A stretch of DNA of 6,128 nucleotides. Origin: a bacterium (lineage in GTDB: Bacteria > T1Sed10-126). This document shows positions 1,763 through 3,997 of this stretch, piece after piece. The first letter of the stretch is position 1. Each line of letters begins with the position of its first letter. Below the pieces are notes generated by a model, which ran no database searches, had not been told where the DNA came from, and worked only from the letters and a program-made list of their open reading frames with translations. The position numbers and the translations under genes were made by a program. Location: assembly GCA_003557545.1 (NCBI GenBank), contig PWOD01000015.1:1-6128 (forward strand), given 5' to 3'.

Positions 1763-2834
1763 CTTCCTCGTCAAGTTGGTTAACCAATTGTTTGACCATC
1801 TCTGACTGCTCCCGATGACAGATCAAAATAGCATCCGAACTACTGACAACTACCAGATCCTCAACCCCCACACAACCGATAAAAGAATCGCCTCTGTTTA
1901 TTAAAATGTTATTACTACTATCCAGCGCCTTCACATCACCCATGCAGAGGTTTTCTCCCTCTGTTTCGCCACTCAAGTGCTGCCCGACCGAGTCCCAGGT
2001 CCCGAGATCCTGCCAGTTAAACTCCACCGGCAGAGTCCAGACCCGGTTAGATTTTTCCAGAATCCCGTAATCAACTGAAATCCTCGGTAGTTTAGAATAA
2101 AAATCAGTCGCTGCCTGCTCCCAGTTTCCCCGTTTCTCCCAGCTTGCTTCTATTTTATTTAGTCCCTCATGGAGCTCAGGCATAAACAGTTTAATCTCCT
2201 TCAAAATCCTCCCGGCGGTCCAGAAAAACATCCCACTGTTCCAGAGATAATTTCCCGAGTCGAGAAAAGCTTGAGCCATCTTAGCTTCAGGTTTTTCAGC
2301 AAACTGCCTGACCCGAAAAAACTGTTTCCCGGCAATCTCTTCGGCATGTTTCTCGGTATAATTAATATATCCATACCCGGTAGCCGGATGATCCGGTTTG
2401 ATCCCAAAGGTGACTATTCCCTCGAGATCTACCGCCGCCTCACAGGCAGAGTTAACTGCCGCACTGAAATCTTCTTCGGGTGCTATGCTGTGATCAGCCG
2501 GAAAAACCCCAATAACCGTTTCAGGACCAAACCGTTTTTCAACGATCAATCCTCCCCATCCGGCACAGGCTGCAGTATCACGCCCTTCGGGCTCGCCAAT
2601 AATATTTTCCCGGGGAAGTTCAGAACAGACCTCAGCCACTACCTCCTCATGTTCCCGCGCGGTGATAACAAATATTCCCTGTTTTTGATAAACAGAACTC
2701 AAGCGCTCAATGGTTTTTTCAAGCATCGTCTTTTCATCCAGCAGTTTGACTACCTGTTTAGGATTATTTTTGCGAGATACCGGCCAAAATCTTTTGCCTG
2801 TACCTCCAGCCATTATCACTGCTGCTCTATCCAT
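1743..2834 (-). CDS. manC: Mannose-1-phosphate guanylyltransferase (GDP-mannose pyrophosphorylase)
   Basis: This cytoplasmic enzyme joins GTP and mannose-1-phosphate to give GDP-mannose and pyrophosphate, the mannosyl donor for polysaccharides and glycosylation and the precursor of GDP-fucose. The 363 residues show the full nucleotidyltransferase signature: MAGGTGKRFWPVSR with PKQ (8-27), EPEGRDTAA (81-89), FPADHS (111-116), ATGYGYI (151-157), FAEKP (178-182), NSGMFFW (199-205), SVDYGILEKS (253-262) and FNWQDLGTWDSV (272-283). The length matches the single-domain form; the phosphomannose isomerase cupin found in the ~480-residue bifunctional type is absent. I chose ATG 2834 because GGAGG sits 8 bases upstream and MDRAAVIMAGG is the family's usual beginning. 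The frame is open upstream to an ATG at 2945, but that extension runs through the Nudix gene. The start overlaps the Nudix stop by 8 bases, implying coupled translation. No other sugar-nucleotide gene is visible. Confidence 0.93.
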   Translation of the reverse strand: MDRAAVIMAGGTGKRFWPVSRKNNPKQVVKLLDEKTMLEKTIERLSSVYQKQGIFVITAREHEEVVAEVCSELPRENIIGEPEGRDTAACAGWGGLIVEKRFGPETVIGVFPADHSIAPEEDFSAAVNSACEAAVDLEGIVTFGIKPDHPATGYGYINYTEKHAEEIAGKQFFRVRQFAEKPEAKMAQAFLDSGNYLWNSGMFFWTAGRILKEIKLFMPELHEGLNKIEASWEKRGNWEQAATDFYSKLPRISVDYGILEKSNRVWTLPVEFNWQDLGTWDSVGQHLSGETEGENLCMGDVKALDSSNNILINRGDSFIGCVGVEDLVVVSSSDAILICHREQSEMVKQLVNQLDEEGRHELL

Positions 2835-3255
2835 CAATATCGCCTCCAGAAAACTCATAAAGATATTCCCGCAAAATCTTTTTATGATCAAACACCAGTT
2901 CCGGCAGAGAATCAGACGGCTTCCATAAACCGGTTTCAACTGCATCGGTTCCAGCCTTCAATTCCCCTCGGCCCCGACCCACAAAACAGACCGTAACAAC
3001 ATGCTTACGGGGATCTCGCTGCGGATCGGAAAAGACCCGCCACTGCTCATACTGCTCAAAAATCAGCCCTGTCTCCTCCGCCACCTCCCTTTCCACAGCT
3101 GCTTCGACAGTTTCTCCATATTCTACATAACCCCCGGGTAGAGCCCAACCAACAGGTGGATTTTTCCGCCTGATCAGAACAATTCCATCCTGCTTTTCAA
3201 CTACTGCATCAACGGTCAAATAAGGGTTACTTGGGTTTTGCTTGCCAGTAATCAT
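2827..3255 (-). CDS. Nudix hydrolase, ADP-ribose pyrophosphatase-like
   Basis: The protein has 142 residues, normal for a single Nudix domain. The Nudix box is complete at residues 42-64: G, five residues, E48, seven residues, then REVAEETGL (56-64), with all metal-binding glutamates present. The preceding NPPVGWALPGG and the later FSDPQRDPRKH and LPELVFDHKKIL segments are the pattern of the ADP-ribose pyrophosphatase group (COG1051 type). Members of that group split ADP-ribose to AMP and ribose-5-phosphate in the cytoplasm. Substrate choice cannot be fixed from sequence, and a nucleotide-sugar substrate is possible because the next gene makes GDP-mannose. The ATG at 3255 has GAGGTG 10 bases upstream. 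The start overlaps the preceding gene by 29 bases and the end overlaps manC by 8 bases, so all three probably share one mRNA. Confidence 0.9.
   Translation of the reverse strand: MITGKQNPSNPYLTVDAVVEKQDGIVLIRRKNPPVGWALPGGYVEYGETVEAAVEREVAEETGLIFEQYEQWRVFSDPQRDPRKHVVTVCFVGRGRGELKAGTDAVETGLWKPSDSLPELVFDHKKILREYLYEFSGGDIDG
2843..2847 (-). promoter_or_regulatory. Ribosome binding site deciding the manC start
   Basis: A perfect GGAGG on the minus strand stands 8 bases before ATG 2834 and lies inside the last codons of the Nudix gene. It favours 2834 over the in-frame ATGs at 2858 and 2945 and places the site where ribosomes finishing the Nudix ORF would pass. Confidence 0.7.
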
Positions 3256-3648
3256 AAGCCGCCTGCACCTCTAAATCAAATCTCTCGAACTGCCGATTAA
3301 AACGTTCAGCATAGAAGCTTTGATAGTATTCTACATAAAGTTTCCCAAATATCAGTTGTTTTTCATACAGACCCCGGCGGCGACCATAATCCACGAGCTC
3401 ATCCGCTGTCAAAACCATCGGGTTTATCAGCTTCTCACCCCCCACAACTCTCTCCCGATTCTTTAGATCAGCTAAAATTGGCTGCCCCTGCCAGATTCGA
3501 AGACGAAGATCTATTTCGCTTTGTTGGGGTTTTAAATGATAAAAATCTGCTTTGTAACGGAGAGTTGAAACTCTATAAATCTGGATAAGGGCGAACAAAA
3601 TAATCAAAAAAAAACGGCCAGTAGCAGATAAAATCTCTGGGAACTCAT
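3227..3648 (-). CDS. Membrane-anchored protein of unknown function, frame broken at a nine-T run
   Basis: I do not recognise the family. The well-formed start is ATG 3648, with GAGGTG 5 bases upstream. From there the frame reads MSSQRFYLLLAVFF and hits TGA at 3606-3604, immediately after nine consecutive T (A3606-A3614 on the plus strand). The long downstream frame (from TTG 3607 to the stop at 3227, 126 codons) continues with LIILFALIQIYRVSTL and has no ATG or GTG and no Shine-Dalgarno sequence near its 5' end. If one T were added, both parts would join into a 140-residue protein with a clean single N-terminal membrane segment (about residues 7-24). A soluble, charged, tyrosine-rich tail without cysteines would follow. 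The break may be a sequencing error, a true mutation, or slippage on the T run. The start overlaps the TAA of the small upstream ORF (TAATG), and the end overlaps the Nudix gene. Confidence 0.7.
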
Positions 3649-3827
3649 TAGCTCACCTCAACCATTCTGCCTCCAGAATATTTCTGCTCTTCATAAACAG
3701 CATAACCAATCATATTAAAGAATTCCAGTAAAAACCGGCTGGATAACCTCCCCTGATCTCCACAGACAAACTTTTTGGATGGCCATAGATTCGGCAAAAA
3801 TCTCCTGTTGTTTTGAAAACTGATCAT
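3648..3827 (-). CDS. Small ORF (59 codons or fewer), unknown function
   Basis: The frame runs from ATG 3827 to TAA 3650-3648. The translation contains LPNLWPSKKFVC, RLSSRFLLEFFNMIGYAVYE and ends EQKYSGGRMVEVS. I do not recognise it. In favour of a real gene: it lies on the same strand as its neighbours, fills an otherwise empty gap, and its TAA shares a base with the next ATG (TAATG), the usual sign of coupled translation. Against it: it is short, and ATG 3827 has no Shine-Dalgarno sequence. A TTG at 3797 has AGGAGA (3806-3801) just upstream and would give 49 residues, and an internal ATG at 3713 would give 21. The hydrophobic stretch is too short to be called a membrane helix. Confidence 0.4.
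   Translation of the reverse strand: MISFQNNRRFLPNLWPSKKFVCGDQGRLSSRFLLEFFNMIGYAVYEEQKYSGGRMVEVS
3654..3659 (-). promoter_or_regulatory. Ribosome binding site supporting the ATG at 3648
   Basis: GAGGTG on the minus strand lies 5 bases from ATG 3648 and agrees with the extended anti-Shine-Dalgarno match GGAGGTGATC. It is the main reason to believe that translation begins upstream of the nine-T run rather than at TTG 3607, which lies directly behind the T run and has no such site. Confidence 0.6.
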
Positions 3828-3857
3828 TTTTTATTTGATAACTTTGGGAGGGGTCAA
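3828..3857 (-). promoter_or_regulatory. Possible promoter of the small-ORF/Nudix/manC cluster
   Basis: On the minus strand TTGACC (3857-3852) is followed after 18 bases by TAAAAA (3833-3828). The -35 box is strong and the -10 box is weak. It lies just behind the tRNA gene and upstream of the first gene of the cluster, where a promoter is expected. A start near 3821 would exclude ATG 3827 as the translation start and favour TTG 3797. Confidence 0.3.
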
Positions 3858-3923: not shown

Positions 3924-3997
3924 TCGGGACGGCCGGATTTGAACCGGCGACCTCGCGCCCCCCAGGCGCGCGCGCTACCAAGCTACGCCACGTCCCG
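3924..3997 (-). tRNA. tRNA-Pro (anticodon GGG)
   Basis: The minus-strand sequence folds as a full cloverleaf of 74 bases. The acceptor stem is CGGGACG with CGTCCCG. The D arm contains GCGTAGCTTGGTAGCGC. The anticodon stem CGCGC/GCGCG closes the loop CTGGGGG, giving anticodon GGG, which reads CCC and CCU. The T arm is GCCGG-TTCGAAT-CCGGC. The C1-G72 pair is usual for bacterial proline tRNA. The discriminator base is A, and CCA is not encoded (ATTT follows), so the CCA must be added after processing. It stands alone between merR and the small-ORF cluster with its own promoter upstream. Confidence 0.95.

Follow-up and report, generated by a model that had tools for sequence, protein, structure and literature searches.

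Why should what looks like a gene for a small membrane protein stop after 14 codons, at a run of nine T, and continue in another frame for 126 codons more? The window analysed here, in which this arrangement was found, is a whole contig of 6128 bases, and it belongs to a draft genome of 2.15 Mb that comprises 239 contigs and is 91.9% complete. The host phylum is little known and salt-loving. In the GTDB it carries the name T1Sed10-126, and the metagenome of a salt mine is among its reported sources (PMC10104926). Read along the minus strand, the window holds a partial plsY, gpsA, a gene for an HU-type protein, a MerR regulator gene and tRNA-Pro, then a coding-like stretch, the split gene, a NUDIX hydrolase gene, a mannose-1-phosphate guanylyltransferase-like gene and a gene for a GLUG-repeat protein. 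The split gene falls in the interval from tRNA-Pro to the NUDIX gene, and the latter overlaps the final 29 bases of the body, as we term the longer of the two parts; the shorter is called the head (Table 1).

Table 1. Features of the split gene and its surroundings, in positions of the window.
Feature	Positions	Strand	Evidence and remarks
Run of nine T (U9 in RNA), junction of head and body frames	3606..3614	minus	sequence
14-codon head MSSQRFYLLLAVFF followed by TGA	3604..3648	minus	start ATG 3648; GAGGTG 3659-3654; Shine-Dalgarno -6.9 kcal/mol
Heptamer U_UUU_UUU in the head frame, immediately followed by TGA	3607..3613	minus	sequence; candidate -1 ribosomal slip site
126-codon body in the other frame	3227..3607	minus	hydrophobic anchor start, then charged helical region; orphan protein
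Candidate independent 72-residue product from GTG 3445	3227..3445	minus	Shine-Dalgarno CGGGAGAG, -7.4 kcal/mol
Five-codon mini-ORF MVEVS-stop (or end of a 59-codon ORF)	3648..3665	minus	GGAGG 3674-3670; overlaps ATG 3648 as TAATG
NUDIX hydrolase gene	2827..3255	minus	Pfam PF00293, E 1.9e-22; own Shine-Dalgarno -7.1 kcal/mol
Coding-like stretch, frame differs from the following ORF	3718..3831	minus	15.6 bits; 4/1000 shuffles as high
tRNA-Pro(GGG)	3924..3997	minus	conserved 5' neighbour; L004 701-774

Anatomy of the frame break

The original prediction placed a strong start at ATG 3648, and this was borne out: the GAGGTG element is separated from the ATG by a spacer of five bases, and the start codon overlaps the TAA of the preceding ORF as TAATG. 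The same prediction set a TGA directly behind nine consecutive T. The 14 codons and the TGA that ends them (3606-3604) were as described, but the T of this stop is itself the ninth T of the run, which begins 33 bases into the split gene. As had also been stated, one additional T fuses the 14-codon head with the 126-codon body into one continuous frame, and we found that the loss of two T joins the two frames as well. Within the run, the heptamer U_UUU_UUU (3613-3607) conforms in the zero frame to the X_XXY_YYZ pattern of slippery sites. A -1 ribosomal slip at this heptamer could give the identical 140-residue product, a possible rescue route in addition to those that the original prediction had listed.

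The ORF in front of the split gene may be as short as five codons, and this mini-ORF may act as a leader that couples translation to the split gene. Of the Shine-Dalgarno sequences around the split gene, the strongest is the GGAGG that serves ATG 3665 of the mini-ORF, with -9.3 kcal/mol.

Coding character of the body and its continuity with the head

The open frame of the body runs from TTG 3607 to TAA 3229-3227. It scored 0.23 bits per codon, where the other sense frames gave about 0.02-0.05, and the best coding score of the body region, 27.9 bits, was equalled by none of 1000 dinucleotide shuffles of that region. The body reads as coding sequence. The possibility raised earlier, that a slippage-prone run within coding sequence has shifted the frame by one base, was supported. 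From the single sequence of the body, AlphaFold2 returned a model with a pLDDT of 59.8.

The body had been described as having neither an ATG or GTG start nor a Shine-Dalgarno sequence, which is true of its first 54 codons and fails beyond them, where GTG 3445 is preceded by the Shine-Dalgarno sequence CGGGAGAG, with a pairing energy on a level with those of the NUDIX start and of ATG 3648 (Table 1). A 72-residue soluble product from this GTG is possible, and ATG 3418 is also present in the body. At the upstream end of the frame, TTG 3607 and TTG 3598 have no Shine-Dalgarno sequence (-1.5 and +0.6, respectively). Such starts are not rare in the host genome: a weak or missing Shine-Dalgarno sequence was seen in 47 of the 217 coding segments of a rough scan, which covered contigs chosen for holding long A/T runs.

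We next compared the hydropathy of the separate and the joined reading. The original prediction had regarded the gene as clearly one unit on the strength of its hydrophobic anchor, and the most hydrophobic 19-residue stretch did rise from a hydropathy of 1.03 to one of 2.89 when head and body were joined; the word "clearly" proved too strong. Random heads put in front of the body matched the joined hydropathy in 1.8% of cases and yielded a plausible anchor (at least 1.9) in 77%, and they did so this often because the T-run encodes Phe and the body begins with LIILFALI. As evidence of one gene, the completed membrane anchor is no more than moderately informative.

These data bear on the alternative that head and body were never one gene, or that a 72-residue soluble protein is made from GTG 3445, with the head a chance or leader ORF. 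The Shine-Dalgarno sequence of GTG 3445 equals those of accepted genes, and an apparent anchor arises with most random heads, both of which would suit a separate body. However, the coding character does not begin at this GTG and reaches upstream past 3445 to about 3637, an anchor in which all 14 residues take part is unusually hydrophobic, as the small share of matching random heads indicates, and ATG 3648 has both a good Shine-Dalgarno sequence and a start region like that of a NUDIX gene in another genome of the phylum (see below). We consider a separate body highly improbable. Most likely, the gene at 3648-3227 on the minus strand was formerly one frame and encoded a small protein, confined to this lineage, that was anchored in the membrane by its N-terminus. 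We infer this continuity of head and body from the Shine-Dalgarno sequence, from hydropathy and from the weak similarity of the start region, rather than from an intact orthologue.

Relatives and homopolymer runs in the host genome

The body protein was searched for widely, with methods that could miss distant relatives. A pattern search of 84,980 species genomes gave no credible relative, and none was found in 59 genomes (its own and relatives), in the phylum, or among viral contigs, phages and plasmids; PDB, Pfam, PHROGs and NCBIfam held no credible match. Two matches were inspected and rejected, one to G001, the only other T1Sed10-126 phylum genome compared, at 0.08, which overlaps a HigA-like antitoxin ORF, and one to PHROG 27105 at 0.0076 over 31 residues. 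Orthologues, whose alignment had been proposed to see whether break and run are conserved, did not turn up in the collections searched.

The gene order gpsA-HU-MerR-tRNA-Pro-NUDIX is retained in G001, where 93 bases lead from the tRNA to the NUDIX ATG, and at this syntenic place of the only phylum relative compared the split gene is absent. Judged from the syntenic place in G001 and from the lack of relatives in the collections searched, the split gene appears to be dispensable on the scale of the phylum. The start region of the G001 NUDIX gene aligned ATG-to-ATG with that of the split gene (TGGTTG...ATGAGTTCC), with a score that was matched by 8 of 1000 shuffles and by 5 of 2578 anchored controls. 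The resemblance suggests descent of both starts from one ancestral ribosome-binding site, the body having been lost in G001 or gained here, and an exchange of start sites by deletion or insertion is possible. The similarity is also weak evidence that translation does begin at ATG 3648. In G001, the region around the NUDIX start (L005 3450-3510) resembles positions 3631-3664 of the window and not the window's own NUDIX start.

We then considered how ordinary a run of nine T is in this genome. There were 27 distinct runs of at least nine A or T in the 2.15 Mb (31 overlapping matches), where simple arithmetic from base composition leads to an expectation of 20-30 such runs; G001 had 17 (18 matches). 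The run itself is ordinary for the host genome. Twelve other runs of 9-10 A/T lie inside intact, strongly coding frames, for example in genes reading as bioB and folK, and the T-run of the window was the only one of the 27 seen to break a gene. With twelve runs in intact frames and one break, nothing suggests that the genome recodes at such runs as a rule. The rough scan mentioned above also pointed to seven further candidates for broken genes, most of them brief overlaps between adjacent genes, with weak signals for initiation. Its sample is biased, since the contigs had been chosen for holding long A/T runs.

The count of nine T comes from one draft assembly and is provisional. The main rival explanation, which we judge unlikely, is that the run was miscounted, because the consensus of this draft metagenome genome is wrong by one base or because the assembler picked a minority allele, and that the gene is in frame. 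Such errors occur most often in homopolymers, the run sits on a 6-kb contig of a fragmented and incomplete draft, and the body is without decay, all of which an assembly error would accommodate. Against it, the twelve other runs of comparable length stand in intact frames, and the genes next to the split gene in the window are unbroken. A general fault of the assembly at homopolymers was rejected, since other A/T runs sit in intact frames.

Phase variation, in which slipped-strand mispairing would change the length of the T-run at a useful frequency and so turn production of a surface or membrane protein on or off, is very improbable. The place of the run, so close behind the start of a membrane-protein gene, is typical of contingency runs, and the intact body would make an off state reversible. 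On the other side, the case is single: the 27 runs examined did not include several off-frame genes with runs near their starts, as contingency loci would have, and sister loci were not seen; nor was a second allele seen in the one assembly. Indels would not be expected to be specially frequent either, given an intact mutL and the presence of mutS, and a loss of mismatch repair as the source of frequent indels was rejected on these grounds. The mutS gene is in two pieces on two contigs and was probably split by contig ends. These pieces cover model positions 2-241 and 282-840 and are located at C101:7814-8602 and C114:6175-7836.

Slippage in known systems and the favoured explanation

Runs of this kind have a well-described background. 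Insertions prevail in A/T runs, with a frequency that climbs exponentially with run length (PMC1088944, PMC5574713), and in many genomes selection against slippage first shows at a run length of nine (PMC1088944). The locus shows two traits of genes with transcriptional slippage, in that U9 lies on the sense strand at the frame junction and that a change in the number of run bases restores the frame. Neither flank of the run had notable RNA structure; in particular, the 3' flank folded no better than shuffles (z +0.56) in stem-loop folding without pseudoknots, and no stimulatory structure was found there. The nearest Shine-Dalgarno-like element lies about 40 bases upstream of the heptamer, which is not the arrangement of a -1 frameshift stimulator, and U_UUU_UUU is less shift-prone in E. 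coli than A_AAA_AAG (PMC5009743).

Several known genes resemble the split gene in part. In Shigella flexneri mxiE, as here, two overlapping ORFs are joined by one extra U on a U run (PMC1088944), and the longer product is made via this run at 20-30% (PMC4256274, PMC1088944). The longer mxiE product needs slippage, and both its function and the slippage were shown by experiment, whereas the split gene is an orphan known from sequence. Citrobacter rodentium tssM1 is likewise a prematurely interrupted gene with a homopolymer, where slippage restores tssM1 (PMC4256274), but its run consists of eleven A, about 20% slippage was measured, and its function is known. The run of Thermus thermophilus dnaX, a slippage site, also has nine bases (PMC1088944); unlike that of the split gene, it is an A9 late in the gene, and slippage leads to a shorter product. 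The nearest precedent comes from a survey of 108 bacterial genomes, which listed 48 ORFans with 9A or 9T whose status could not be assessed (PMC1088944). Slippage at the mRNA level on a nine-T run would restore the frame in these as it would here, and the difference is in the organism only, not in kind. The split gene is another ORFan of the kind listed in that survey.

A functional mixture of 14- and 140-residue products, as the original prediction had envisaged, found support in the run alone, with no orthologue, RNA stimulator or G001 gene beside it. Programmed transcriptional slippage, in which the polymerase would add a U on U9 in a useful fraction of transcripts and so provide a 14-residue peptide together with a 140-residue anchored protein, has in its favour that U9 is a recognised slippage-prone length, that one added U fuses the frames exactly, and that mxiE offers a precedent with a U run. 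We nevertheless regard it as decidedly unlikely, as the collections searched gave no orthologue in which the run could be seen conserved, neither flank is notably structured, the 14-residue product has no evident use, and the other coding runs of 9-10 would be equally disturbed, yet their genes are intact. It is very unlikely that the gene is a lineage-specific T1Sed10-126 membrane protein, overlapping the NUDIX gene, that is made only via slippage on U9, whether by the polymerase or by the ribosome on U_UUU_UUU.

The explanation we favour, with about an even chance of being right, is a recent slipped-strand change of one base in the T-run of a dispensable orphan gene, possibly with leaky rescue. 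Slipped-strand mispairing in replication would have changed the length of the run by one base and shifted the 14 codons of the head against the frame of the body, so that the sampled allele would be mainly null for the 140-residue protein. The change would be recent because the body has no stop over 126 codons and its codon use is still gene-like; a fully open body would also fit a rescued or phase-variable gene. RNA polymerase that slips on U9, or ribosomes that slip by -1 on U_UUU_UUU, might still provide some full-length product, and this would be leakage rather than a programmed event. Here we infer the direction and recency of the change, the ancestral continuity and any leakage.

If this ordinary explanation applies, the locus adds one more orphan gene to those with a homopolymer frame break, and it calls for care when genes are predicted in draft genomes. 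Slippage, if real and useful, would be a case of recoding in a phylum for which very few genomes exist and which lacks genetics, and a route by which an orphan gene comes to two products.

The coding-like stretch upstream of the split gene has a broken-frame coding look, which fits decaying DNA around the split gene under the favoured reading of a recent slipped-strand change. It is possibly the remnant of a second broken gene between tRNA-Pro and NUDIX. Its coding-like frame stops before the next ORF.
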